From an uncultured Planctomycetaceae bacterium (GTDB lineage Bacteria; Planctomycetota; Planctomycetia; Planctomycetales; Planctomycetaceae), in assembly GCA_903871805.1 (NCBI GenBank), contig CAIQIE010000151.1, forward strand, positions 1 through 37,712: a stretch of 37,712 bases of DNA, given 5' to 3'. This document shows positions 1 to 12,576 of this stretch, piece after piece. Position 1 is the first letter of the stretch. Each line of letters begins with the position of its first letter. Under the pieces are notes generated by a model. It searched no databases, was not told the DNA's origin, and saw only the letters and a list, made by a program, of their open reading frames with translations. The position numbers and the translations under genes are program-made.

Positions 1-322
1 ACAGTTTACGAGCCCGCGTGAGTAAAGTCAAAGTAAACTAAACATCCGTACACTATCGATAAGAGAAGTTTTGCCGAGAAGTGGAGATTTGCGGATTAGA
101 GAGGAGGGGTTGGATTTCGGGAGGGGAGAAATGCCACATTCGTTGACTTTCCGAAACAGAATGAGGTTCATGTGCTAGAGTCTTTCGTCTGCAAAACTTA
201 AATGAATTGCGGCGAATAAATAGTTTTCAGTCAGAATCATTCATCTGTGAGGCAGATTCGGTTGCAAAACCGGTCAGTAGCATTCATATTCTTTCATACC
301 TTCGCTTGGAAATGGCGGAAAC
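1..322. other. Leader region upstream of the DeoR-family regulator
   Basis: No gene is supported here. The left end carries a perfect 7-bp inverted repeat, AGTTTAC at 3-9 and GTAAACT at 33-39, and the similar string AAGTAAAC recurs after the regulator gene near 1137-1144. The 200-310 part is AT-rich and holds several CATTCAT-like strings. This is where the regulator's promoter should lie, but I could not pick a convincing -35/-10 pair. An operator role for the repeat is a guess. Confidence 0.3.
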
Positions 323-1090
323 ATGATGATTGTGGATGAACGTCGATCACGAATTTTGAAACTTGCTGAAGAACTGGGCTTTGTCTCGCTGCAACGACTT
401 GTCAGCGAGTTGGGTGCCAGCGAGTCGACAGTCCGACGGGATTTGGAGTTTCTTGACGCGACCGGTCATATTCAGCGTACTCGTGGAGGAGCGTCGTTTC
501 TGGGGGATTCTCAGACCGACTTTGACGCGAGGCGGCGGTTGGCGTCGCAGGAGAAGCAGCGGATTGCCCGTCGCGTGGTGGATTTAATTTCTGAGGGCGA
601 GACGGTTTTGCTGGACGGTGGAACAACGACGCTGGAGGTGGCTCGTTATCTGGTGGGGAAATCTCTGCAGGTGCTGACAAATTCTTTGCCGATTGCGGCT
701 CTGCTGATGAATCGGGCGGAGATCGAGCTGATTTTTATAGGTGGGTACGTTTATCCGAAGACGGGTGTTGCCCTTGGAGAGCAATCGGTGGAGGCGTTGA
801 AGCGAATGCATGCGACGCGGCTGGTGATGAGCACTGGCGGGATTACCGCAGAGGGGTTGTTCAACAGCAATGCGCTGCTGGTAGAGACGGAGCGTCAGAT
901 GATCCGTGCGGCAGATCGGGTAACGCTGGTTGCTGACAGCAGTAAGTTTGGGCAGCGGGCCTTATCGCATCTGTGTTCGCTGGATGTTCTGGATGAGATT
1001 GTGACGGACGAAGGAGTGTCCGGAGAGTGGTGTCAGGTGATGGAGTCGGCTGGTGTTCGCATGGATGTGCTGGGGAGTGTGCTGCGTTAG
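323..1090 (+). CDS. DeoR-family transcriptional regulator of the BMC locus
   Basis: A 255-residue DNA-binding repressor-type protein of usual length for the DeoR family. Residues 5-58 form the winged helix-turn-helix, with the family pattern RRSRILKLAEELGFVSLQRL followed by SESTVRRDLEFLDATGHIQR and RTRGGA. Residues about 75-230 form the DeoRC sugar-phosphate sensor domain, with the typical GETVLLDGGTTTLEVARYL and VLTNSLPIA segments and LVADSSKFG near the end. The family binds phosphorylated sugars or related metabolites and usually represses neighbouring catabolic genes. It stands directly upstream of the BMC genes on the same strand, so it is the likely controller of the locus, perhaps answering to a deoxysugar phosphate. 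The start may be either of the two adjacent ATG codons at 323 and 326. Confidence 0.93.
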   Translation: MMIVDERRSRILKLAEELGFVSLQRLVSELGASESTVRRDLEFLDATGHIQRTRGGASFLGDSQTDFDARRRLASQEKQRIARRVVDLISEGETVLLDGGTTTLEVARYLVGKSLQVLTNSLPIAALLMNRAEIELIFIGGYVYPKTGVALGEQSVEALKRMHATRLVMSTGGITAEGLFNSNALLVETERQMIRAADRVTLVADSSKFGQRALSHLCSLDVLDEIVTDEGVSGEWCQVMESAGVRMDVLGSVLR

Positions 1091-1100
1091 GGGCTTGTTT

Positions 1101-1131
1101 CAATTCAGATGCGTGCGGCGCGTCTGAATTG
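1101..1131 (+). terminator. Hairpin after the DeoR gene
   Basis: CAATTCAGA at 1101-1109 pairs perfectly with TCTGAATTG at 1123-1131, and the stem continues through a G-U pair and GCG/CGC around a five-base loop. It lies 11 bases after the regulator stop. There is no T run after it, so it may be a weak or Rho-assisted terminator, an mRNA-stabilising hairpin, or a palindromic operator for the BMC promoter downstream. Confidence 0.45.
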
Positions 1132-1180
1132 AGTTAAGTAAACAACGCAGGTCACCAGCTTAAGCGAACGGTTTAGTGGC

Positions 1181-1202
1181 GGGTTGGCGGTGGGTTGGCG
1201 GT
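1181..1202. repeat. Tandem 11-bp direct repeat before the pduL-like gene
   Basis: The unit GGGTTGGCGGT occurs twice without a gap in the leader of the first BMC operon gene. The leader from 1132 to 1339 holds no other gene. A tandem repeat in this place could be a regulator site or simple sequence slippage; nothing in the sequence decides between them. Confidence 0.4.
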
Positions 1203-1339
1203 GGACTGACGGGCTTCTCGGGAGTGAGTGTCTGATCTCTCAGGGGAATTCTGTCGGTATTTGACTAAGTTGGCGGAAAGCAGGTTTCCGTGGCTGCCTT
1301 TGTGAGTGGCTTTCTTCATTGCCGGGGAAAACAGAATTT

Positions 1340-2113
1340 ATGACGACGACAACGATGCCGAATCCGGCGGATGTGGAGCGAGTGGTCCGTGACGTGTTAA
1401 CGCGTCATCTGCGGCCGAAACCGGTTTCCTCTGAGGCAGCAGCGGGTGGAATTCCTGTATTGCGGTCGGTGGTGGAGCAGGCTGTAGCGGCCACTGCGAC
1501 TTCGGCGGCGAAGCGTAATCCGCTGGTGGTCAACATTTCTGCTCGTCACGTGCATCTGACGCAGGAGCATGTGGAGATGCTCTTTGGCCCAGGCGCGAAG
1601 CTGACACCGGAAAAGGATCTGTACCAGGACGGATATTTTGCGGCGAAGGAGACAGTGGCGGTCGTGGGTCCGAGGCGTCGCATGCTTCCAAACGTGCGGG
1701 TATTGGGTCCATGTCGTCCGGATTCGCAGGTGGAGCTTGCCTTCACGGACGGCATTTCTCTGGGAATTGACCTGCCGGTGCGGATCAGCGGGGACGTGAA
1801 GGGGACACCTGGATGTGTGCTGATGGGGCCGCACGGGGTTGTCGAGCTGAAGCAGGGAGTGATCCGAGCCATGCGGCATGTGCACATGGGTCCGGAGGAT
1901 CTGGAATATTATGGAGTGAAGGACGGAGATCATATTCATCTCCGGATTGAGTCACCTGGCTGTACCACAGTTCTGGAGGATCTGGCGGTACGAGCTGGCA
2001 AGGGGATCAAGCTGGAGGTGCATCTGGACACGGATGAGGGGAACGCAGTGAACCTTGAAAAAGCCACGCAGGTGGAACTGGTAAAGGCGGAGCCCTGCAA
2101 ATGCGGGCACTGA
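1340..2113 (+). CDS. pduL: PduL-type phosphate acyltransferase (phosphotransacylase), BMC cargo
   Basis: PduL enzymes move an acyl group between CoA and phosphate inside microcompartments; here the expected reaction is lactyl-CoA plus phosphate to lactyl-phosphate and free CoA, regenerating CoA in the lumen. The core (about residues 60-250) carries the zinc-ligand motifs of the family, [13 protein letters not shown] and [10 protein letters not shown], and [12 protein letters not shown] near the second barrel. Residues 7-23 ([16 protein letters not shown]) form an amphipathic helix followed by a low-complexity linker, which is the usual form of an N-terminal encapsulation peptide. I chose ATG 1340; a TTG at 1319 in frame would add seven unremarkable residues. 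The last residues include CKCGH, an unusual cysteine-rich end. The gene begins the shell-and-enzyme operon. Confidence 0.93.
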
Positions 2114-2301
2114 ATCTCTTGTCGGCACATGGATTGTGCGGGCATGAAATGGTGATGGGAGAGCTGTACTGACCGGGACTGTCTGGCGGTGCGGCTGTGA
2201 AATGTGATGGGGTATCAATGCCGACGACGAGGGAATGTCGTTGTTCTTTTATTGCCGGACGCACATGAGGATGTGGTGTGCTGAGGCGGGAGTAATTTGA
2301 A

Positions 2302-2613
2302 ATGGCGAAATCTGTGGAAGCGCTGGGGATGATTGAAACGAAGGGCTTCGTGTGCATGCTCGAAGCCATCGATTCGATGTTGAAGGCAGCCAATGTTGAG
2401 CTGTTGTCCTGGGACAAGATTGGCAGTGGTCTGGTCACTGCGTTTATTTCCGGTGACGTGGCTGCGGTGAAGGCAGCTCTGGACGCAGGTTCAGCAGCGG
2501 CATCACGACTGGGCACCGTGATCAGTGCGGAAGTGATTCCACGTCCGCATGAAGAGCTGGCAGCCATCCTGCCAAAGGCAAAAGCAGCACCGGTTGCAGC
2601 ACCAAAGAAGTAA
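2302..2613 (+). CDS. BMC-H hexameric shell protein 1
   Basis: A 103-residue single-domain BMC protein (Pfam BMC, CcmK/PduA type) that forms hexagonal tiles of the shell facets. The signature is complete: EALGMIETKGFVCMLEAID, then MLKAANVEL, the pore segment KIGSGLVTAFISGDVAAVKA and the closing AGSAAASRLG...AEVIPRP. The pore loop reads G-S-G, as in many small polar-metabolite pores. A tail rich in lysine, alanine and proline (about residues 88-103) extends past the domain. A GGGAG ribosome site lies 9 bases before the ATG. It precedes a second, different BMC-H gene. Confidence 0.96.
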   Translation: MAKSVEALGMIETKGFVCMLEAIDSMLKAANVELLSWDKIGSGLVTAFISGDVAAVKAALDAGSAAASRLGTVISAEVIPRPHEELAAILPKAKAAPVAAPKK

Positions 2614-2828
2614 AGTAAGGCTGCGGATAGGTTTCTTCAGTGCTGAGAGCATGGTGGTGCGAGCAGCCTGAGGGACGAAAACGGTGCTGGCGTCTTCTTT
2701 GGGAACGCTGGGCGTCGGGGAAACGGGGGAGATTTCCTGTTTCCTTCTGCAGAAATTCCGGGCTCATTTTTCTGCTCGGAGATTTCATGAACCCGATTCA
2801 ACTGGAACTTTTTTCGGAAGTCAGAACG

Positions 2829-3095
2829 ATGAACGAAGCAATTGGAATGATTGAAACGAAGGGCCTGGTCTGTGCAGTCCACGCCTCTGATGCAATGTTG
2901 AAGGCTGCCAACGTGACTCTGGTAAAGCAGCTGAATATTGGTGCCGCTTACATCACCACGATTATTAAAGGTGATGTGGGATCTGTGCGAGCTGCGGTGG
3001 ACGCTGGTGCGGCTGCTGCTTCTCAGTCAGGCGAACTGGTTTGTGCGCACCTGATTCCTCGCCCGGAAGCTTCACTGCTGGAATCTGTGCTGTGA
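2829..3095 (+). CDS. BMC-H hexameric shell protein 2
   Basis: A second single BMC domain, 88 residues from ATG 2829, aligned with shell protein 1 along its full length: NEAIGMIETKGLVCAVHASD, MLKAANVTLVKQ, KGDVGSVRAAVDAGAAAASQ and AHLIPRPE. The pore segment reads NIGAAYITT, so the G-S-G of the first paralogue is G-A-A here, which should give a less polar pore. ATG 2829 starts exactly where the domain starts and has GGAAG 10 bases ahead. An in-frame ATG at 2787 with GGAG ahead would add 14 residues and cannot be excluded. The open frame further upstream has no BMC similarity. Confidence 0.93.
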   Translation: MNEAIGMIETKGLVCAVHASDAMLKAANVTLVKQLNIGAAYITTIIKGDVGSVRAAVDAGAAAASQSGELVCAHLIPRPEASLLESVL

Positions 3096-3120
3096 TGAAC
3101 TGCCGGCTTTCCGGCGGACG

Positions 3121-3195
3121 GTCCGGGAAGCTGTCTGAGTCGTATTGACGGGAACGAGCAATCGTTCGACGATCCCGGACATCGACCAGACAGCT
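3121..3195 (+). ncRNA. Possible structured intercistronic RNA element
   Basis: Three complementary pairs occur in 75 bases between the second BMC-H gene and the kinase gene. GTCCGGGA (3121-3128) pairs with TCCCGGAC (3173-3180). AGCTGTCTG (3129-3137) pairs with CAGACAGCT (3187-3195). Inside lies GAACGA-GCAA-TCGTTC (3152-3167), a six-pair stem closed by a GNRA tetraloop. The first two stems cross, so together they would form a pseudoknot, or they are mutually exclusive alternatives. No T run follows, so it is not a simple terminator. No known riboswitch class is recognised. It may control expression between shell and enzyme genes. Confidence 0.45.
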
Positions 3196-3320
3196 CGATC
3201 GGGCTAATGGGAAATACGTTCGGCAGAAGGAGTCTGTCCGGATGGTGAATTTTAACCAGGAGTTTCTGCGGTGCTGATGATTTCCTCCATCCGACCGCCG
3301 GCAGTAGGGAGAATGGAATT

Positions 3321-4517
3321 ATGAAGGTCCTTGTCGCCAATCTGGGATCCACCAGTTTCAAGTATCGATTGTTTGACCTGTCTGACGAGACGCAGATGGC
3401 CCGTGGTGGGATTGACCGCATTGGTCAGTCGGACGCCACGAGCTCCTGTTTCGTGGAGATTGGCGGACATCGAGCTGAGCTGAAGCAGGTGGTTCCGAAC
3501 CATGCGGCTGCGGTCAGTATTTGTCTGCAGCAGCTCACGGATCCTGAGCACGGATGCCTCAAGTCTGTGGACGAGGTTGGTGGGATTGGATTCAAGGCCG
3601 TGTTTGCCGGCAGTCTGAGTGGCGTTCGGATCGTCAACGAAGCGCTGTTGCAGAAGATGGAAGATCTTTCGGACATTGCCCCGGCTCACAACCCGCCTTA
3701 TGTGCGGGCCATGCGACAGCTGCAGGCAGCGTTTCCGAAGATTCCGCTGGTGGCAGCTCTGGAAACCGGTTTTCACGAAACGATCCCGTTTGAACATCGG
3801 GCGTATGCCGTTCCTTATGAATGGTATACGGATCTGGAAATTCGACGCTGGGGATTTCATGGTGCCAGTCATCGCTTCATTGCGGGGCGGGTTGCCGAGA
3901 TTCTCGGACGGACGGATCTGAAGATCATCAGTTGTCATTTGGGAGGCAGTGCTTCGATCTGTGCCATCAAAAATGGTGCCAGCATCGCGGCATCGATGGG
4001 AATGAGTCCTCAGGGAGGTCTGCCGAACAACAATCGCGTCGGGGATTTCGACGCCTATGCGATTCCGGTCATTATGAAGGCGACCGGGATGACGTTTGAA
4101 CAGGTTCTGACGGAAATGTCTTCAAAGGGTGGACTGCTGGGCATCAGCGGACTCAGCGGTGACTGCCGCGACCTTGAGGAGGCATCGGCAACGGGACATG
4201 ATCGGGCCGAGAAGGCACTGAAGCTTTTCGAAGCCTCGATCCGTACCTACGTGGGCGCATGGATGGCATTGCTGGGTGGTGCGGATGTAGTTGTGTTCAC
4301 TGGAGGAATTGGTGAGAACAGCGAACGAATCCGGACCAATGTCTGTCGCAACATGGAGTGGGCTGGCATGAAGCTCTGCTCACAGAAAAACGCTGTGGTT
4401 CGCGGAGAGACCTGTATCAGCACGGACGACAGTCGTGTGCAGATCTGGACTGTCCCGACCAATGAGGAGATTGTTGTGGCTCGGCAAACAGCGGAGGCAA
4501 TTGGCGGGCAGGCCTGA
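3321..4517 (+). CDS. Acetate/propionate-kinase family enzyme with altered active-site residues
   Basis: A 398-residue ASKHA-fold acyl-phosphate kinase, usual AckA length, probably making ATP and lactate from lactyl-phosphate. Conserved parts are [13 protein letters not shown] at the N-terminus, [11 protein letters not shown] (121-131), [20 protein letters not shown] (162-181, with His180), [13 protein letters not shown] (204-216), [18 protein letters not shown], and TNEEIVVAR near the C-terminus. The segment that reads GHRVVHGG in acetate kinases reads GFKAVFAG (90-97), so the catalytic arginine is Lys92. The catalytic aspartate of FDTAFH is Glu148 ([11 protein letters not shown]). The RSGDIDP segment is RVGDFDA, with Arg239 kept. 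No encapsulation helix is visible, so the enzyme probably acts outside the shell. I infer a substrate shift rather than loss of function, because the rest of the fold is well kept. Confidence 0.88.
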
Positions 4518-4642
4518 GAAGGCGGGTCCGGACCGGGTCGCAGTTAGTCTGCAGTCCGTCACCAAATCGCGATGGGTCGTTATTCGAGGGTTCAGAAATC
4601 GGCTGTATTCGCGGATCGAAGCAGCCGCAGAGGGCAATCATC

Positions 4643-4954
4643 ATGTTTCTGGCAAAGATTACAGGCAGTCTGGTTTCGACTCAAAAGGTCGAAGCTCTGG
4701 TAGGTCAGAAGCTGTTGCTTGTGGAACCGCTTCGGGTTGACGAGAAGGATCAGAAAAGTCTGAAGCCAACGGGTCGGTCTTTTGTTGTGGTCGACACTGT
4801 GGGGGCAGGCGAAGGGGATGTGGTGTTGATCGTGCAGGGATCCAGTGCCCGGTTTACGGCGGGAACGAAGGAACTTCCGATCGATGCGGCCATTATCGGC
4901 ATTGTAGATACGGTGCAGGTGCAGACGACAACTATTTTCAAGGCCGGTGAATAA
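4643..4954 (+). CDS. BMC-P pentameric shell vertex protein 1 (EutN/CcmL family)
   Basis: A 103-residue EutN/CcmL-type protein, which forms the pentamers at the vertices of the shell. It begins MFLAKITGSLVSTQKVEALV, continues QKLLLVEPL, and has the family core FVVVDTVGAGEGDVVLIVQG followed by SSARFTAG and the closing IDAAIIGIVDTVQV. This is the most typical of the three vertex proteins in the locus. Three distinct BMC-P genes with only two BMC-H genes are characteristic of the planctomycete-type compartment. It is 125 bases after the kinase gene and is followed by a 500-base stretch without a recognised gene. Confidence 0.95.
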   Translation: MFLAKITGSLVSTQKVEALVGQKLLLVEPLRVDEKDQKSLKPTGRSFVVVDTVGAGEGDVVLIVQGSSARFTAGTKELPIDAAIIGIVDTVQVQTTTIFKAGE

Positions 4955-5454
4955 CGGTTTTGTTCAGGGGCCTCGCAGGAAGGTCAGATATCGGGCATGA
5001 CGCCTGACGGTTTTGATCAAATACAGAAGGAACTGTTTACAGTAGGGCTGCACACGGCAGGATGGGGCTCTGGATCCAGCGTTCGCGGATAACGCGGGTG
5101 ACTGGTTGGGGGGCTATATGCGGTATTTCTGCTGATCTTTGCGGGTGCTGAGAAAGGTTTGCCGTGGCTCTTCGGTAGAAGTCGCAGGTCTGAATGCTGC
5201 GGTGAACATTCAGGGACAAAGTCAGGTTTCCAATTCTCCTGGTCTCGGTGCAGCTCGATTTGATGAGGATTTGATCTCGGTCGAACGTCATTTGCCTGTT
5301 GGATTGAAAGCAGGCCTGGGCGGTTTTCACTGTCTCAATATGGGACAGGTTTTGGGTTAGTTGGAAGGGTTTCTTCAGAAGACACATATCGCGAACGGAT
5401 GACGCGATTCACAGAGTGCGATGGGAGATATCGCGGTGCAGAGAGATTACTCAG
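4955..5454. other. 500-base interval without a recognised gene inside the BMC locus
   Basis: This stretch separates the first vertex-protein gene from the aldehyde dehydrogenase gene. Reading frames on both strands (for example 5139-5360 +) have no recognisable motifs and no good ribosome site. A weak stem GCCTGTT/AGCAGGC lies near 5296-5317. In an otherwise tightly ordered locus its length suggests a second promoter or a leader for the downstream enzymes, but no clear -35/-10 pair was found. Confidence 0.35.
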
Positions 5455-6867
5455 GTGCAGTCAACAGAACAAACAATTCGTCAGGTGGTGCAGGAAATCC
5501 TGACACAGCTGGCTGGGCGTCAGGGAAGTCCCGTTGCGTCGAACAAGTGGGGTGTGTTTGACACCGTCGACGAAGCCGTCGCAGCAGCACAAAAGGGCTT
5601 TGAGCAGCTGACTCGGGCAACGCTGGAGCAGCGCAAAACGGCGATCGACATTGTCAAGCAGATGTGCGACGATCAGGCTGAAGAGCTGGGTCGCATGGAG
5701 TTTGACGAAACAAAGATTGGCCGGCTTGAGCACAAGATTGCCAAGCTGAAGGCGATCAGGACGGTTCCAGGAGTAGAGTTTCTGCGTACTGACGCAGTCA
5801 GCGGATCCCATGGACTGACGATCACGGAATATGCTCCGTTCGGGGTTATCGGAGCGATCACTCCGGTCACGCATTCGCTGCCGACATTGGCTGGCAACTT
5901 TGTCAACATGGTTGCTGCGGGCAACACGATTGTGTGCAATCCGCATCCAAGCGGTGCCAGGATTGCCAGCGAAGGCGTACGACGCTTCAACAAAGCGATT
6001 CATGCGGCCACGGGACTGGAAAACCTTGTGACGATTATTGGAACTCCGACGATCGAATCCGCGCAGCAGGTCTTTGATCATCGCGGGGTAAAGCTGCTGG
6101 TGGTCACTGGCGGACCGGCTGTTGCCCGGGCTGCCTTGAAAAGTCCAAAGCGGGCGATTGTGGCCGGACCGGGAAATCCGCCGGTTGTGGTAGACGCGAC
6201 CGCGGACATTGACAATGCTGCGAAGTCCATCGTTGCCGGAGCAGCGTTCGATAACAACCTCCTGTGTATTGGCGAAAAGGAAGTCTTCGCCGTGAAGGAG
6301 ATTTTTGACCAGTTGATGAATGCGGTGGCAAATCACGGCGGTTATCGTCTGAATGCAGCCCAGATCGCAGCATTTACGGCAAAAGCATTCGGACCTCCAA
6401 AGGAGCCGGGTGGACACCATGTGCTGAATCGCGACTTCATTGGAAAAGACGCGGCATGGCTGGCCGCCCAGATTGGTCTGAGCATTCCGGCGGATACGCT
6501 GATTCTTTACGGCGAGACGGATGAGAATAATCCGTTTGTTCCGGAGGAGCAGATGATGCCGTTCGTGCCATTTGTCCGCGCGAACTGCAGTGATCATGCG
6601 ATTGCTCTGGCAAAGAAATTCGAGCACGGTTTCGGGCATACGGCAATTATTCATTCACGCGATGTGCATACCATCACAAAGATGGGGCGCGTGATGAACA
6701 CAACGCTGTTTGTAAAGAATGGTCCGTGTATGGCTGGGCTGGGTCTGGGCGGCGAAGGATATCTGTCCTTCAGCATCGCAACCCCGACTGGCGAAGGCGT
6801 GACCAGCCCGATGACGTTCACTCGTCAGCGTCGCTGTGTCATGGTGGACGATCTTCGAATCATCTGA
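5455..6867 (+). CDS. CoA-acylating aldehyde dehydrogenase (PduP-like), BMC cargo
   Basis: An aldehyde dehydrogenase superfamily enzyme of the PduP/EutE type, expected here to oxidise L-lactaldehyde to lactyl-CoA with NAD+ and CoA in the shell lumen. Visible motifs are [16 protein letters not shown] and [15 protein letters not shown] for cofactor binding, [32 protein letters not shown], and [14 protein letters not shown] carrying the catalytic cysteine. The N-terminus [16 protein letters not shown] is an amphipathic helix, then a short linker and [14 protein letters not shown], the standard layout of an encapsulation peptide before the catalytic domain. I prefer GTG 5455, which starts just before the helix and has a purine-rich AGAGAG ahead; GTG 5416 in frame would give 483 residues with an extra N-terminus rich in arginine and isoleucine. 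Confidence 0.93.
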
Positions 6868-6928
6868 TGGTGTGCGATCGCCGGTGAAATTGCCGGCGAT
6901 CGACAGATTTCCCGAAACGGACAGGATT

Positions 6929-7213
6929 ATGCAGATCGCACGAGTTCTGGGACATGCCACGGCGACCGTCAAGCATGACTCCATGAATGGCTGGAAGCTG
7001 ATCGTGCTGCAGCCGCTGGACATCAATTATCAGCCGGACGAGTTTCCTCAGCTGGCCATTGATCCGCTTGGCGCCCGCAAGGGAGATTATGTGTTTTTCA
7101 CCAGTGATACGAAGTACATCCACAAACTGACAGGGCGAAATGACAGCCCCATTCGATTCTCCGTACAGGGGATTCTGGACAGGGTCCCGGAATCGGTCGG
7201 GAACGGCTCCTGA
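6929..7213 (+). CDS. BMC-P pentameric shell vertex protein 2 (EutN/CcmL family)
   Basis: A 94-residue EutN/CcmL homologue. It begins MQIARVLGHATATVKHDSM, with the family pattern WKLIVLQPLDI, then LAIDPLGARKGDYVFFTSD in place of the more usual D-x-x-G-A-G-x-G-D core, and ends RFSVQGILDRVP. ATG 6929 was chosen because the fold starts there and CGGACAGGA lies ahead; the open frame reaches back to 6836 but overlaps the aldehyde dehydrogenase gene and carries no family sequence. It differs clearly from the other two vertex proteins, so the three probably have distinct positions or mixed-pentamer roles. Confidence 0.92.
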   Translation: MQIARVLGHATATVKHDSMNGWKLIVLQPLDINYQPDEFPQLAIDPLGARKGDYVFFTSDTKYIHKLTGRNDSPIRFSVQGILDRVPESVGNGS

Positions 7214-7350
7214 CGATTGCAGGCAGATACAGGCGGTTCAATCAGGGACGAGGACAGTTCCGGGCTTTTTAAGAATCACACATGGCCCGGACGGGCTCTG
7301 AATTCAGCGAATGATTTCAGGGATTTCGGACTGACAGATAAAGACAGACA

Positions 7351-8055
7351 ATGACACTCAGTGCGGCGAAGATTGACGAAATCGTGCGGAATGTTCTGCG
7401 AGAGCTGGAAGCTCGCAGAGCAGCCCCGGTGACCGCACCTGTTGTGTCGGCCGCAGTGAAGTCTGCAGAAAAGTCGGATAGTGCGGAAGCCAGTCCAGCG
7501 GTGGTGATTCGTGGACGCGTCATCAGTGAAGCGGTTCTGGCTGCGTCAGGTGCTGCCGGAAAAACCGTATCACTGATGCGAGGGGCTATTCTGACACCTT
7601 CGGGAAGAGATTACATTCGGAAGTATTCCGTGCGTTTGTCCAGTCTGCTGCCGCAACCGGAAGGTTCTGTCAGTGGTCTGGTACTGATTGCCGGGAAGTC
7701 ACCAACAGCTCAGTCTGCTGCTCAGGCGGCAGGCTGGAAAGTTGCTCCAGTGGACGAGGGTTTCGCGGCTGTTACGGCAGCACGGGCCGCTGTTGCAGCG
7801 CAGCGAGTGATTTGTGTGACGGAAGATCCATCGATTGTTGCTTGCCTGCTGAACCGGGATTCGGCGGTGCGTGCTGCTGTCGTGACGGGACAAAAAGGGC
7901 TGGACAAGCTGATTCGCACGATGCATCCAAACGTGGTGTGTCTTGCGAGCGAGGGTTGGTCGTTCAATGATCTGACGCGACTGCTGCGACTGATGTCTTC
8001 AGTCAATGGCCCTGCAGAGTCATGGAAGGAAATTGTTCCTGGAGGAACACGATGA
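7351..8055 (+). CDS. Unknown BMC-associated protein with N-terminal encapsulation-type helix
   Basis: A 234-residue protein I cannot assign to a function. Residues 4-22 (SAAKIDEIVRNVLRELEAR) form an amphipathic helix like those of the PduL-type and PduP-type cargo, followed by an alanine/proline-rich linker to about residue 50. Residues 53-90 include RGRVISEAVL and GAILTPSGRDYIRKYSV, a pattern shared with the N-terminal part of EutT/PduO-like and other BMC accessory proteins. Residues about 105-215 alternate strands and helices, and the stretch NRDSAVRAAVV...MHPNVVCLASEG resembles the C-terminal half of RpiB/LacAB sugar-phosphate isomerases. A role in the lumen on a sugar phosphate or aldehyde is a guess. 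The stop overlaps the start of the next shell gene (ATGA), so the two are probably translationally coupled. Confidence 0.85.
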   Translation: MTLSAAKIDEIVRNVLRELEARRAAPVTAPVVSAAVKSAEKSDSAEASPAVVIRGRVISEAVLAASGAAGKTVSLMRGAILTPSGRDYIRKYSVRLSSLLPQPEGSVSGLVLIAGKSPTAQSAAQAAGWKVAPVDEGFAAVTAARAAVAAQRVICVTEDPSIVACLLNRDSAVRAAVVTGQKGLDKLIRTMHPNVVCLASEGWSFNDLTRLLRLMSSVNGPAESWKEIVPGGTR

Positions 8056-8333
8056 GAATTATGGAATGTATCGGAAGAGTCACGCTTTCGAAGTGGGACC
8101 CGGCTCTGACGGGAGCTTCATGGAAGCTTGCGGTTCCTTTGATGCATTCGGGATTGAAAGGGGATCCGGCAGGACGCATGGAGCCACTTGTGCTGCTGGA
8201 TGAAATGGGAGCGGGCATTGGAAGCCTGATGGCGGTGACGGAAAGTGCCGAAGCCTCAACTCCCTTTTATCCGAAGACAAAACCGATTGATGCATACAAC
8301 GCTGCGATTCTTGACACAGTCAGTGTTGAGTAA
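8052..8333 (+). CDS. BMC-P pentameric shell vertex protein 3 (EutN/CcmL family)
   Basis: A 93-residue EutN/CcmL-type protein: MRIMECIGRVTLSKWDP at the start, WKLAVPL, then MEPLVLLDEMGAGIGSLMAVTES as the family core and AYNAAILDTVSV at the end. The start ATG 8052 overlaps the preceding gene's TGA, with a strong GGAGG at 8041-8045; the open frame extends to 8022 but that part lies inside the previous gene. It is the most divergent of the three vertex paralogues, with an extra hydrophobic N-terminal strand and the segment PLMHSGLKGDPAGR, typical of planctomycete BMC-P groups. Confidence 0.92.
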   Translation: MRIMECIGRVTLSKWDPALTGASWKLAVPLMHSGLKGDPAGRMEPLVLLDEMGAGIGSLMAVTESAEASTPFYPKTKPIDAYNAAILDTVSVE

Positions 8334-8401
8334 TCCGCAGAAACCTTTGAAAACTTATTTCCCCCGATAACTGAAGTCTGATCACTGAAAAGGCACCGAA
8401 C

Positions 8402-9292
8402 ATGTCAAATAAATGGAACAGCGGGATAAACGACCGGGCACTGAAGGAAGAAATCTGTGAAATCGGTCGGCGTGTCTATGACAAGGGGTTCGCCGCCGCG
8501 AATGATGGAAACATCAGCATTCGAGTTGGTGAAAACGAAGTGCTGTGTACACCGACCATGATCTGCAAAGGGTTCATGAAACCGGACGACATCTGTGCCG
8601 TCGATATGGATGGCAATCAGATCGCCGGCAAACGCAAACGAACCAGCGAAGTACTGCTGCACCTGGCGATTATGAAGCACCGCCCGGATGTCAAATCCGT
8701 GGTTCACTGTCATCCGCCGCATGCCACCGCGTTTGCTGTTGCCGGAGAACCTATTCCCCAGTGCATTCTTCCCGAAGTGGAAGTGTTCATGGGCGAAGTG
8801 CCAATTGCACCCTACGAGACTCCGGGAGACCAGCGGTTTGCCAGTACCGTGGTGCCGTTCCTGAAGGCGACGAACACGATTATTCTGAGAAATCATGGAA
8901 CCGTCTCTTTCGGAAAAAGTCTGGAAGACGCTTACTGGAAGACGGAAATTCTGGACGCCTACTGCCGCATCCTGCTGCTGGCGAAGCAGATTGGCCAGCC
9001 GATGTATCTGAGCGAGGAAAAGAGTCGCGAGTTGCTGGATCTGAAGAAGAAGTGGGGCTTTGACGACCCACGATTCCACAACGAAAACTGCGATCTGTGC
9101 GGTAACAGCGCATTTCGTGAAGGCTATAAAGAGAACATTCCGGTACAGCGTGCCTTTGAGGCGGCACCGGACTATCCAGGTTACCTGCAGAAGCCCTGTG
9201 GTGAACCTTGTGAAACTAAGCCGGCTGATGTCGATGAAAATCTTGTGAAAATGATCACCCAGCAGGTTCTGGCTGCAATGAGCCGAAGCTGA
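8402..9292 (+). CDS. Class II (zinc) aldolase, fuculose/rhamnulose-1-phosphate type, with C-terminal encapsulation tail
   Basis: A class II aldolase/adducin-family enzyme, expected to cleave L-fuculose-1-P or L-rhamnulose-1-P to dihydroxyacetone phosphate and L-lactaldehyde, the first step inside the compartment. The catalytic domain is residues 10-215: AANDGNISIRVGENEVLCTP binds phosphate, VVHCHPPHATAF supplies two zinc-ligand histidines (102 and 104), and RNHGTVSFG the third (His165). At 296 residues it is much longer than the roughly 215 of E. coli FucA. The extra 80 residues contain CDLC (230-233) and CGEPC (266-270), then DENLVKMITQQVLAAMSRS, an amphipathic helix like the N-terminal targeting helices of the other cargo. 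I read it as a C-terminal encapsulation peptide on a cysteine-rich, possibly metal-binding or disulfide-bearing linker. Confidence 0.93.
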   Translation: MSNKWNSGINDRALKEEICEIGRRVYDKGFAAANDGNISIRVGENEVLCTPTMICKGFMKPDDICAVDMDGNQIAGKRKRTSEVLLHLAIMKHRPDVKSVVHCHPPHATAFAVAGEPIPQCILPEVEVFMGEVPIAPYETPGDQRFASTVVPFLKATNTIILRNHGTVSFGKSLEDAYWKTEILDAYCRILLLAKQIGQPMYLSEEKSRELLDLKKKWGFDDPRFHNENCDLCGNSAFREGYKENIPVQRAFEAAPDYPGYLQKPCGEPCETKPADVDENLVKMITQQVLAAMSRS

Positions 9293-9416
9293 GGGGCACA
9301 GCAACAGGCAGGTTCCATGGGGAGCCTGCCTAAATCGAATCTGAACCAGTGTGGACGGGTTTTCCGCTTCCCATTTCCGATGTGATGAGAGATCAGAGAC
9401 AGACGGGACAACGACA

Positions 9417-10349
9417 ATGAAGGTCAGCATTATTGGTGGTGGCGGGCTGGTGGGTTCCTGTGCGGGATTCGCCCTTCAGGCCGGAAAGATTGTCAGTGAC
9501 ATTGTGCTGGTGGACGTCAATAAGGATTTGTGCGAAGGTCAGGCACTGGACCTCCTGCACGGAGCCTCACTGATGGCGCCGCAGAGAATCACGGCCGCTG
9601 GAACGGAAGCTGTGAAGGACAGTGATGTGATCGTGATCACGGCAGGCCTTCGCCGCAAGCCGGACGAAAGCCGCCTGGATCTGATCAACCGCAACGTGGC
9701 TCTGTTTCGAACCATTCTTGCCGATGTGAAAAAGCACGGCATGAAGAAGGAAGCCATTGTGTTCGTGGTTTCCAACCCCGTGGACGTGCTCACTTACCTG
9801 GCCGTAAAGGAACTCGGACTTCCGGCATCTCAGGTCATTGGACTGGGGACCGTTCTTGACACGACCCGCCTTCGCAGTATGCTGGCTCAGCGACTCAACG
9901 TTCCGCCGACTCAGGTCAGCGTGACGATCTTTGGTGAACATGGCGATAGCATGGTCCCGATCTGGTCGATGGCACAGATTGCCAACATGCCGCTCGAAAA
10001 ATATCCTGGTGTGAATCAGACGCTGGTCAGCGAAGTGGAAAAGAAGACCCGAGGCAGTGGCGCGGAAGTCATTCGCAAGAAGGGCGGCGCTGGTTTTGCC
10101 GTTGGTGTTTCCATTGCCGATGTTGTGCACAGTATTGCTCTTGATGACAACCGCATTCATCCGGTCAGCAGCCTGATGAATGGCGCCTACGGTGTTCGCG
10201 ACGTTTGCTTCTCAATTCCGACAGTGATCGGACGATCTGGTGTGAAGAGCCATATCGAAGTGGAACTGTGGTCCAAAGAAAAGACCGCATTGGTGCAGAG
10301 TGCAAATGTTCTGAAAGAGACGATCGCGACAGTTCTGAAGGGTTCATAA
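9417..10349 (+). CDS. L-lactate/malate dehydrogenase family enzyme
   Basis: A 310-residue NAD-dependent 2-hydroxyacid dehydrogenase of the LDH/MDH family, full length. The dinucleotide fold opens with KVSIIGGGGLVGS and the acidic residue in IVLVDVNKD (Asp33) favours NAD. Catalytic residues are visible: Asp148 and Arg151 in VLDTTRLR and His175 in FGEHGDSMVPIWS. The substrate-specificity loop reads GLRRKPDESR (77-86), placing Arg80 where lactate dehydrogenases have glutamine, so the sequence favours a dicarboxylate such as oxaloacetate/malate. The gene closes the BMC operon and is followed by a terminator. It lacks an encapsulation helix. In this compartment type it is usually thought to rebalance NAD(H). 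ATG 9417 is where homology begins; the frame upstream is not conserved. Confidence 0.92.
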   Translation: MKVSIIGGGGLVGSCAGFALQAGKIVSDIVLVDVNKDLCEGQALDLLHGASLMAPQRITAAGTEAVKDSDVIVITAGLRRKPDESRLDLINRNVALFRTILADVKKHGMKKEAIVFVVSNPVDVLTYLAVKELGLPASQVIGLGTVLDTTRLRSMLAQRLNVPPTQVSVTIFGEHGDSMVPIWSMAQIANMPLEKYPGVNQTLVSEVEKKTRGSGAEVIRKKGGAGFAVGVSIADVVHSIALDDNRIHPVSSLMNGAYGVRDVCFSIPTVIGRSGVKSHIEVELWSKEKTALVQSANVLKETIATVLKGS

Positions 10350-10382
10350 CCCTGTCGCTGCCGACCACAGCACACAAACCAC

Positions 10383-10428
10383 AAAGGACGCAGTTGCACT
10401 TCCCTCGGGAAAGCAACTGCGTCCTTTT
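10383..10428 (+). terminator. Rho-independent terminator of the BMC operon
   Basis: A perfect 15-bp stem, AAAGGACGCAGTTGC (10383-10397) with GCAACTGCGTCCTTT (10413-10427), encloses a 15-base loop and ends in a T run (TTTT). It begins 34 bases after the dehydrogenase stop codon. It is the strongest hairpin in the window and marks the end of the BMC transcription unit. Confidence 0.9.
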
Positions 10429-10965
10429 CTGTTTCGTCAGCAGGATCAGTCTGGCCCATTTTGGCCGCAAACCAGCACGAAGCGCCAGCGAAGACATCGC
10501 ACATTCGGAGATTACGCACATCACGGCCCGATCGCCGGCCCCGGCAATTGCCAGGCTCGTCAGCCTTTACTCGCACCGCGGTATGACGCGAACACGCGTC
10601 GCGCGAAATTGAAGCTGGTGGCCCGATTGTGGCGCCGAGCGTGCGTGTTGGGCGACATCGATTTCGTGTGGCCCGGGCTGGAACGTAACCCGTTATGAAA
10701 GTTCACGACGCACTCCACTTACAGCTCTGCCGAAATCTCAAGCCGCTCAAAAATGGGTTCAGACTCTGCAGGCATCGCTCCGCGTTTGTCAGTCCGAACC
10801 TGCCGAGCAGTGTACCAGACAATCGATAGGCACAATCCCGACGGTCAACCTGCTGGAAACGCGGGCAGCCACCGTACCGTTTCCACCTTGTTGAACCGGA
10901 AAATCTGCAAAATCGATGTTGGTTTTTCGCAATTTTTCTGGACTTCACAGCGATTTAACGGACCG
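10429..10965. other. Interval without a recognised gene after the BMC terminator
   Basis: Between the BMC terminator and the 3' end of the convergent kinase-like gene there are several open frames on both strands, but all have poor composition, no family motifs and no ribosome site. I see no tRNA, insertion sequence or clear repeat. Confidence 0.4.
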
Positions 10966-12576
10966 CTACCGTACTTCAACAGGCGCCGACGAAGCATTTT
11001 TTCGCACCAAATGTTGCAGCAGGTCTGTTTGAGTTTTCAAGGCGGTGCCTTCTGTTGGAATGCTGATCAATTCGGCGTCGGGAATTTCCTTTACAGCCAG
11101 ATATCCGGCTGCAAGCTTCTCAAAGTCTTCTTCACGCGCATCGGAAATCACCTGGCGGTTCTGATTGCGATGTCGCAGGCGATCCCGCACAGTTGCATCG
11201 CTGGCAACCGCTTCCACCCACATCAGTGAGAATCCTGCCGCGACAATCTGTCTCCTCAGGATGTCCCGATGCTCGCGATCTGAATATGTTGCGTCCAGAA
11301 TCACACAGTGGCCTGCCTGCAACCGCGCTATCGCCTGTTGCTGCAATTCCGAATAGACCTGATCCGTGATCTGGCGGCTGTACAATATCGCGCGTTCCTG
11401 ATCAGTCCCTCGGTGATACAGATCAACGCCGCCCAGAGTTTTTCGCAGGCGGTCGGATGAAAACACCAGCCAGCCTGTTTCGTCACTCAGGAATTCTGCC
11501 AGTGACGATTTACCGGAGGCAATGCGTCCGCAGAACACAAACAAGCGCGGTCTGGTTCCTGCAATTGCGTAGCGTAGCGCAAGGCGAAAGTATCTGTGGG
11601 CCAGTTCAATGGCCTCCGTGCGTTCGTTCTCCTCTGCGGTCTCGGTCACACTGTGAAGACTCTCAACCTTTCCTCGCACACAGGCCCGGTAACACTGGTA
11701 ATAGGTGAGAAGGTGCGGCAGACCGGGATCTTTCCAGGCCTCCTGCATACGCTGAATCAGGACTTGTCCCAAATCAGGACGACCGTGAAAATCGAGGTCC
11801 ATGGTCAGAAAAGCGATATCGCAGGCCACGTCGGTGTGACGCAGTTCTGCACTGAATTCCAGACAGTCATAGATTCTGATGCTGTCATCCGAAAGGTGAA
11901 TGTGATCCAGGTGCAGGTCGCCGTGGGTGTCCTGTATCCATCCCTGATTGCTGCGGGATTTCAGCAGGGCTCCATGTGTTGCCTCGAACACACAGTTATA
12001 TTCGGCGATGGCAGTCAGACAGTGTTTTGACAGTGTTCGGCCGGAAAATTGCTGTGCTATGGCGAGATTGTCGCCGGCGTGTTGATGGATGCGGCTTGTG
12101 GCAGCCTGACTTTCGGATTCCGGCAGGGGCGGTTGAGTCTGGTAGAAGCGAAGCAATCGCTCGGCAACACGGGTGATCTGCTCTGCTGTCAGACAACCGT
12201 CATGCAGTCTTTGCAGCAGAAATCCCGCGGAATCCAGCTCACGCATCCACACACACCATTCCATGACCTCCCCCTGCGGTTGAGACGTCAGCAGCAAGGA
12301 TCCGTTCACATAGCAGACAGCGGCCACACCAAGGTAAACATCTTCGGCCAACCGCCGATTCAGTTCAACCTCGGCCAGACTGTTCTCACGCCGCCGTTCC
12401 AGTGTGGTGAAGTTCAGAAATCCGAAATCGACGGGCTTCTTGATCTTGTAAACAAAGGGACTCGCCAGAAAAACCCACGAGGCATGCGTCTGCAGACGAC
12501 GTACTTCTTTGGGTTGATGAGGATACGATTCCGGGTTTGCAAGGAATTCCAGCACCCGCCTGGTGATTTCCTCCAT
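10966..12576 (-). CDS. Fused aminoglycoside-phosphotransferase-like / P-loop kinase protein
   Basis: A 536-residue two-domain cytoplasmic protein. Residues about 1-330 form a kinase-like (APH/fructosamine-kinase fold) domain: ASPFVYKIKKPVDFGFLNF near the N-terminus holds the lysine-containing nucleotide region, and THGDLHLDHIHL (217-228) is the Brenner-type catalytic loop, followed by IYDCLEF as the metal-binding segment. Residues about 340-520 form a P-loop domain with Walker A GRIASGKS (350-357) and an arginine-rich lid (RDRLRHRNQNRQV). The same fusion is widespread in bacteria as an AAA-family ATPase/APH protein of unknown substrate. A GGAGG site lies 8 bases ahead of the ATG. Convergent with the BMC operon; no functional link is visible. 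Confidence 0.88.
   Translation of the reverse strand: MEEITRRVLEFLANPESYPHQPKEVRRLQTHASWVFLASPFVYKIKKPVDFGFLNFTTLERRRENSLAEVELNRRLAEDVYLGVAAVCYVNGSLLLTSQPQGEVMEWCVWMRELDSAGFLLQRLHDGCLTAEQITRVAERLLRFYQTQPPLPESESQAATSRIHQHAGDNLAIAQQFSGRTLSKHCLTAIAEYNCVFEATHGALLKSRSNQGWIQDTHGDLHLDHIHLSDDSIRIYDCLEFSAELRHTDVACDIAFLTMDLDFHGRPDLGQVLIQRMQEAWKDPGLPHLLTYYQCYRACVRGKVESLHSVTETAEENERTEAIELAHRYFRLALRYAIAGTRPRLFVFCGRIASGKSSLAEFLSDETGWLVFSSDRLRKTLGGVDLYHRGTDQERAILYSRQITDQVYSELQQQAIARLQAGHCVILDATYSDREHRDILRRQIVAAGFSLMWVEAVASDATVRDRLRHRNQNRQVISDAREEDFEKLAAGYLAVKEIPDAELISIPTEGTALKTQTDLLQHLVRKNASSAPVEVR

Follow-up and report, generated by a model that had tools for sequence, protein, structure and literature searches.

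The stretch analysed here (the window; 37,712 nucleotides, GenBank CAIQIE010000151.1, assembly GCA_903871805.1) is contig C151, taken from its base 1, of a 6.5-Mb, 87.5% complete assembly of an uncultured Planctomycetaceae bacterium. Positions 323–10428 carry a one-strand array of twelve genes with the make-up of a bacterial microcompartment (BMC) operon of the Planctomycetes–Verrucomicrobia (PVM) type, and the leaders of two of them, encoding the first shell protein (BMC-H1) and a CoA-acylating aldehyde dehydrogenase (AldDH), each form two hairpins that present GGA in their loops, suggestive of control by CsrA (Table 1). The contig begins 322 bases before the DeoR-family gene, and the view of gene content upstream ends there. 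Genes were read from open reading frames (ORFs), with Pfam run on ten proteins (all but the aldolase and the lactate/malate dehydrogenase (LDH/MDH) homologue) and NCBIfam on ten (all but BMC-H2 and BMC-P2). Starts were taken from relatives and Shine-Dalgarno context (PduL, ~1340; BMC-H2, 2787; AldDH, GTG at 5455; BMC-P2, 6929; LDH/MDH, 9417).

Table 1 Features of the microcompartment locus in the window; positions with a minus sign are relative to the start codon.
Feature	Coordinates	Strand	Details
DeoR-family regulator (pvmA-like)	323..1090	+	PF00455 161 bits, PF08220 51 bits
PduL-type phosphotransacylase, N-terminal encapsulation-peptide-like helix	1340..2113	+	PF06130 236 bits, above cut-off
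BMC-H1 leader distal hairpin	2222..2243	+	AGGGA in loop, GGA at −70; U-rich tract follows
BMC-H1 leader proximal hairpin	2261..2281	+	loop GGA at −33
BMC-H1 Shine-Dalgarno GGGAG	2288..2292	+	third GGA, at −13
BMC-H shell protein 1 (BMC-H1)	2302..2613	+	PF00936 97.4 bits
BMC-H shell protein 2 (BMC-H2), short N-terminal extension	2787..3095	+	PF00936 87.8 bits; start from sequence
Acetate/propionate-kinase family protein	3321..4517	+	PF00871 350 bits, TIGR00016 above cut-off
BMC-P1	4643..4954	+	PF03319 106.6 bits
Spacer; kin L036/L038 carry a four-helix membrane-protein gene here, the window does not	4955..5387	+	
AldDH leader hairpin A	5388..5408	+	loop AACGGATGA, GGA at −58
AldDH leader hairpin B	5417..5435	+	loop TGGGAGATA, GGA at −31
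CoA-acylating aldehyde dehydrogenase (AldDH), GTG start, N-terminal encapsulation-peptide-like helix	5455..6867	+	NF011927
BMC-P2	6929..7213	+	PF03319 76.6 bits
Predicted cargo protein ORF	7351..8055	+	helix, linker, small middle domain, RpiB/LacAB fold
BMC-P3	8052..8333	+	PF03319 49.8 bits
Class II aldolase (signature enzyme), C-terminal encapsulation-peptide-like helix	8402..9292	+	NCBIfam class II aldolase matches
LDH/MDH-family dehydrogenase (predicted NADH recycling)	9417..10349	+	TIGR01771 304.2 bits
Intrinsic terminator	10383..10428	+	z −6.4, 0/200 shuffles

The initial annotation had described 323–10428 as a complete PVM-type locus, and the whole gene set that it named is found there by ORFs, Pfam and NCBIfam. 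Its count of two BMC-H and three BMC-P genes holds for the assembly as a whole, in which searches return two PF00936 and three PF03319 matches, all in the locus; no further shell gene of either family and no BMC-T among the shell-family matches were found in this 87.5% complete genome. The strong terminator proposed to close the array is borne out by the folding of 10350–10440 (none of the 200 shuffles folds as well); a simple terminator pattern scan did not list the 10383–10428 stem. The locus has the hallmarks of PVM loci: a class II aldolase, the AldDH plus PduL core, an LDH/MDH gene in the presumed place of the alcohol dehydrogenase (AlcDH), and DeoR with an acetate-kinase homologue as ancillary genes. 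AldDH scores 608 bits on NF011927 (cut-off 403) and starts at the same position as its relatives. Encapsulation-peptide-like helices are present in PduL (in which hydrophobic moment is highest in an N-terminal 14-mer), AldDH and the protein encoded by ORF 7351–8055, and a less marked one at the aldolase C-terminus.

Genome contigs scanned with the aldolase as query yielded 99 confirmed relatives, of which the best 80 were kept; 51 loci span DeoR to aldolase, and the order of ten genes is identical in all 51, which places the locus in the PVM type. ORF 7351–8055 has a match in 45 of these 51, and AldDH is present in all 18 genomes of the genus that were searched. PVM loci of comparable content are described in PMC4207490 and PMC8217296, and in Planctopirus limnophila the pvm cluster of 13 genes opens with DeoR (PMC11958385), so that the agreement with the deoxysugar compartment of that species noted in the initial annotation is supported in both content and DeoR-first arrangement. 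Shared with the P. limnophila pvm cluster and with the loci of Axen 2014 and Sutter 2021 are DeoR in first position, PduL, AldDH, the acetate-kinase family protein, class II aldolase, LDH/MDH family protein, more BMC-P than BMC-H genes and no BMC-T. Compared by description, pvmABDEGHIJKLMNO has 13 genes and the window locus 12 (PMC11958385). Judged from its genes, the locus is thus a PVM-type metabolosome operon, one more well-supported member of a known organelle type. Points of difference from the published PVM loci are a spacer without the membrane-protein gene that 39/65 loci have, and the GGA hairpins of its leaders, which are unmentioned in the parts of the published descriptions that were consulted.

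The leader hairpins, like ORF 7351–8055, had not been named in the initial annotation. The block just 5′ of AldDH is 93% identical to that of the related locus L038, against ~80% across the rest of the locus, and folds into two hairpins, each with a loop GGA. An extension of AldDH coding sequence through 5380–5480 is unsupported, as relatives start at a (G/A)TG equivalent to 5455. Leaders were scanned for hairpins with a stem of at least 5 pairs, at least 3 of them G-C, and a loop of 4–10 nt containing GGA, within −95 to −5. At least two such hairpins are found in BMC-H1 leaders of 13/57 loci and AldDH leaders of 8/64, compared with 5/326 control leaders (ORFs of at least 250 residues outside the operon). 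Counts for the other genes, obtained with unrefined start codons, are 0/51 (DeoR), 3/45 (PduL), 0/59 (BMC-H2), 0/59 (kinase), 0/68 (BMC-P1), 1/17 (BMC-P2), 0/60 (ORF 7351), 1/77 (BMC-P3), 0/81 (aldolase) and 1/61 (LDH). GGA ranks first among the 64 loop trinucleotides in both BMC-H1 and AldDH leaders, where the runner-up reaches 5 and 4, respectively.

All 13 two-hairpin BMC-H1 leaders lie within a clade of 19 loci (the window, L036–L040, L042–L048, L052, L055, L056, L058, L059 and L115), and shuffling the leaders of this clade gives at least two hairpins in 0–2.4%. The positions of GGA are largely fixed: −67 to −74 in 15/19 and −32 to −35 in 18/19 BMC-H1 leaders of the clade, most of which then have GGA in the Shine-Dalgarno sequence, and −53 to −61 in 14/20 and −28 to −32 in 11/20 AldDH leaders (clade plus L049). 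The stems, in turn, vary between lineages. For the distal BMC-H1 hairpin, pairs were counted in the ten loci of the commonest register (8 distinct rows, 7 pairs); the other five of the 15 that have a distal GGA, L040, L042, L043, L047 and L052, are shifted by one, as judged by eye, and did not enter the count. Standard pairs make up 92.9%, falling to 20–70% when the strands are slid against each other, and the loop A, G, G, A is invariant. Four of the seven pairs change on both sides (reached by 59/500 shuffles), and covariation reaches 0.704, where the shuffles average 0.393 and none of 500 is as high. The AldDH leader alignment is too gapped for pair counts, and covariation there was judged by eye. 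The form ANGGA (A at −2 of the distal GGA) occurs in 12/15 loci and 8/9 lineages, compared with 20.4% for all GGA. In ensemble sampling, both leaders of the window place their two GGAs in apical loops at a probability of at least 0.7.

A prediction was set down before the leaders of three unscanned members of the genus (L170, L171 and L172) were fetched, with AldDH leaders scanned over −100 to −5. GGA lies within the predicted position ranges in all three BMC-H1 leaders; both GGAs are in strict hairpins in two, and one GGA in the third. L172, whose resemblance to the scanned leaders is confined to short, weak matches, agrees with the prediction at both BMC-H1 and AldDH. The distal stem of L171 is shared by L044–L046, in which the loop reads AATGAC rather than AAGGAC, and the distal GGA seems to have been lost in these three loci while the hairpin persists.

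The genome that contains the window has six CsrA matches, and the five that were read have an MLVL(S/T)R start and R44, which we take to be conserved, functional CsrA residues; csrA was found in 21/21 genomes searched. ANGGA is the consensus form for CsrA. The BMC-H1 and AldDH leaders of the window each hold at least two loop GGA sites, a trait of CsrA targets, and at BMC-H1 a further GGA site overlaps the Shine-Dalgarno sequence (GGGAG, 2288). Targets of CsrA are described as presenting GGA in loops, often with one site at the Shine-Dalgarno sequence, and in Salmonella CsrA binds the pduA and eutS transcripts (PMC10433801). GGA-loop hairpins, the published form of CsrA targets and the presence of csrA genes together make CsrA control the best reading of these leaders. 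A CsrA paralogue would set translation of BMC-H1, the first shell gene, and of AldDH, with the CsrA dimer in each leader bridging two hairpin-borne GGA sites separated by ~27–37 nt and extending, in the BMC-H1 leader, to the Shine-Dalgarno GGA, so that shell and core enzyme would be made only once carbon status has released (or engaged) CsrA. CsrA-type translational control of the two genes, of which we infer both the binding and its sign from sequence, is a proposition on which the evidence is about evenly balanced; that compartment building is gated post-transcriptionally, one CsrA paralogue clamping the BMC-H1 leader and Shine-Dalgarno sequence together with the AldDH pair, has by our estimate an even chance of being correct.

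Several observations weigh against CsrA control. The hairpin rule was fixed after the AldDH example had been seen, and the clade was picked after the scan. Outside the clade two GGA hairpins are found in 0/38 BMC-H1 leaders and one in five, yet csrA was found in all 21 genomes searched. Both GGAs are apical at a probability of at least 0.7 in only 8/19 BMC-H1 and 5/20 AldDH leaders, and most leaders do not stand out in folding z-score (−0.90 and −0.77 for those of the window). The AldDH pair is patchy, with no strict hairpin in L040, L044–L046, L048, L055, L056 and L058, and the AldDH Shine-Dalgarno sequence (AGAGAG) has no GGA. Among the three held-out loci, ANGGA is present at the distal site in one, the AldDH leaders have two hairpins, one and none, respectively, and two are related to scanned leaders (L170, 76% to L043; L171, 84% to L045).

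Finally, a U-rich tract (TTCTTTTATT) lies 3′ of the distal BMC-H1 hairpin of the window, which the terminator pattern scan picked up, and similar tracts are found in several kin. This makes the main rival explanation one in which the leader hairpins are transcription attenuators, or elements for RNA stability or processing, and the loop GGA is incidental. We regard it as possible but the less probable interpretation, since the loop AnGGA is invariant in the ten counted loci while the stem covaries, L058 and L059 retain the GGA hairpin without a U-rich tract, no such tract follows the proximal hairpin or the AldDH hairpins of the window, and GGA heads the loop trinucleotides in both leaders.

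The CsrA layer would act on a compartment in which the supply of substrate is partly accounted for by genes elsewhere. The kinase that the initial annotation expected outside the locus is encoded on contig C408, one of four FGGY kinases in the genome and a rhamnulokinase by its NCBIfam score (542.7 bits; cut-off 527.95). The isomerase expected in the same way was not recovered: searches for RhaA, Fucose_iso_C (FucI) and RhaI gave no match in the 87.5% complete genome, which counts against the deoxysugar pathway. In the genus, Fucose_iso_C matches occur in 2/18 genomes (34–35 bits, over the cut-off) and RhaI in 1/13 (20.6 bits, far under the cut-off), with none of the 13 over it; the RhaA search covered this one genome. 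In the proposed pathway the cytosolic rhamnulokinase would supply a 6-deoxyketose-1-phosphate, which the aldolase, held inside by its C-terminal helix, would split into dihydroxyacetone phosphate and L-lactaldehyde. AldDH would then oxidise lactaldehyde to lactyl-CoA, which PduL and the kinase homologue would convert to lactate, recycling CoA and yielding ATP, while the LDH/MDH homologue would re-oxidise NADH and DeoR would act as a sugar-responsive repressor. Both the identity of the sugar and the encapsulation of the enzymes are presumed here from the genes and their helices.

The motifs HCHP and SE(V/I)LLH are found in 80/80 relatives of the aldolase and a third His within (N/G)HG in 72/80 (by the pattern used); the protein is below the cut-off of each NCBIfam family among the 25 shown of 30 matched. 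With 304.2 bits on TIGR01771 (cut-off 303.55), the LDH/MDH homologue barely qualifies as an LDH, and a model for a malate dehydrogenase subfamily accepts it too (286.7 bits; cut-off 283). It carries the motif GLRRKPDESRLDLI, and the corresponding residues in 60 relatives are RRKP in 54, RRRP in one and unreadable in five. Arg at this position is, we assume, typical of malate and not lactate dehydrogenases, which puts a role as lactaldehyde reductase in question. Where the sequence continues for more than 2.5 kb past the aldolase (63 loci), an LDH/MDH match is present in 47 and was not found in the other 16 (L065, L088–L090, L094–L098, L101, L102, L105, L106, L108, L110 and L113), where NADH recycling may differ.

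The compartment might instead serve another aldolase substrate that needs no classical aldose isomerase step, e.g. a ketose or a sugar-acid-derived phosphate. The lack of RhaA, FucI and RhaI matches and the scarcity of the latter two in the genus are in line with this, as is the best NCBIfam match of the aldolase, a 3-oxo-tetronate 4-phosphate decarboxylase family (145.5 bits, below the cut-off of 250). We nevertheless consider it unlikely, given the rhamnulokinase above cut-off, the position of close aldolase relatives in a locus type published as serving fucose and rhamnose, and the reliance of the RhaA negative on one genome. A PVM-type metabolosome with a deoxysugar pathway, overlain by the putative CsrA layer, is in our judgement a probable explanation of the locus as a whole.

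ORF 7351–8055 alone has no Pfam or NCBIfam match, and a match to it is found in 47/148 genomes of the class (including its own). A model built from a 78-sequence alignment (mean predicted local distance difference test score (pLDDT) 83.7, predicted template modelling score 0.59) retrieves RpiB or LacAB isomerases in 40 of the first 42 Foldseek rows (best E 7e-5), the other two being 4u8f, another ketol-isomerase. At the sequence level, 32/78 members match LacAB_rpiB (Pfam) at E up to 0.1 (best 5.6e-6), and sequence relatedness to PDB chains of RpiB/LacAB is weak (E 0.16 at best). Within the protein, the hydrophobic moment peaks in the N-terminal helix, for which a weak alignment (E 0.025) to the N-terminus of the light chain of ethanolamine ammonia-lyase was obtained. 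Family-profile positions aligned to the RpiB CGTG loop and the next His, presumably catalytic in RpiB, hold other residues, and only T82, P83, C165, N168 and R169 are invariant in the alignment. Identity of the protein is 67–68% in the two nearest loci (L036 and L038) and falls to 41–46% in eleven others (L037, L039–L047 and L115), in which the aldolase remains 89–96% identical. Compared with RpiB/LacAB isomerases, including the RpiB of SPU (sugar phosphate utilising) BMC loci, the C-terminal part thus has the same fold, but the catalytic loop is unconserved, divergence is fast, and an encapsulation-peptide-like helix and a middle domain are added. We predict from the model a fast-evolving cargo protein of RpiB/LacAB fold that has apparently lost the catalytic loop, and read it as structural or regulatory cargo rather than a proven isomerase. 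That it is the missing sugar (phosphate) isomerase, an encapsulated RpiB-family enzyme, is very improbable: fold and LacAB_rpiB matches would allow it, and PMC4207490 notes that several RpiB proteins isomerise many sugars, but the CGTG-loop and His positions are unconserved, just five residues are invariant, and a location inside the shell would place isomerisation after phosphorylation.

In many relatives the gap between BMC-P1 and AldDH encodes a protein of ~150–200 residues, predicted to be an all-helical, four-helix membrane protein (mean pLDDT 89.3). The gene is present in 39/65 loci (window included in the 65), 35 by profile scan within the gap plus L048, L063, L068 and L091, where it starts just before the gap, and in 12/18 genus genomes, among them G151, with a remnant, and G153, with a fragment at the edge of a contig. 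A profile of 29 members matches nowhere in the genome that contains the window. No PDB fold match under E 0.4 was found, and no Pfam family is matched by more than two of the 29 members (best DUF2975, E 2.9e-4, one member). In G151 (L140) and in L044, counted among the 39, the gene is left as a remnant in two pieces, which suggests recent loss, and overall it appears to be an accessory gene with a history of repeated loss. The spacer of the window is ~54% identical to L038 DNA in a forced alignment, against ~80% in the flanks. Its origin as a decayed copy of this gene is unsupported (no blastn match to L038 and none to the 29-member profile), as is a repeat or mobile element at 4955–5415, which is single copy in the genome.

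Elsewhere in the locus, 91/99 aligned bases of the BMC-H2/kinase spacer (3100–3199) equal those of L038, a conservation like that of coding sequence; no known RNA family was found at gathering threshold in 1–11000 of the window, including this spacer. Two AldDH/aldolase loci of PVM type are found in single genomes in two cases (L037 and L041 in metagenome-assembled genome (MAG) CAIOKE; contigs C29 and C119 of G153), reflecting either a duplicated compartment or mixed binning. L043, L044, L090, L100 and L101 come from MAGs titled Candidatus Kuenenia stuttgartiensis, a name that looks misassigned; their aldolases are 76–90% identical to that of the window.

Salmonella, where CsrA controls pdu and eut (PMC10433801), and the system proposed here would have in common a BMC operon, the transcript of a leading shell gene as target and loop GGA. 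In Salmonella, binding was seen by electrophoretic mobility shift assay and reporters, with a positive effect, and the leading shell gene is the first of its operon; here, control is predicted from sequence, in a planctomycete PVM operon whose leading shell gene is third and whose host genome has no fewer than five csrA paralogues. Literature searches on CsrA and microcompartments and on planctomycete microcompartments, which did not extend to subscription papers or supplementary tables, yielded no report that we recognised of these leader elements or of an RpiB fold in a PVM locus, and no study of planctomycete CsrA was recognised from titles and abstract openings. A CsrA layer thus appears undescribed for the PVM compartment in searchable papers; earlier notice of it is possible. 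In P. limnophila, glucose lowers the rhamnose-induced pvm reporter, which was read as additional catabolite repression (PMC11958385); since its upstream regions are those of pvmA and pvmB alone, the reporter is no test of leaders like those found here.

These leaders offer a candidate way for a planctomycete to hold back a costly shell when better carbon is at hand, and propose a target for the csrA paralogues of the 21 genomes. If CsrA acts on them, they would be a CsrA target in Planctomycetota, with carbon status setting the output of shell and enzyme together, and regulation by CsrA at the leading shell gene of a microcompartment operon, known from Salmonella pdu/eut, would have a second, independent example.

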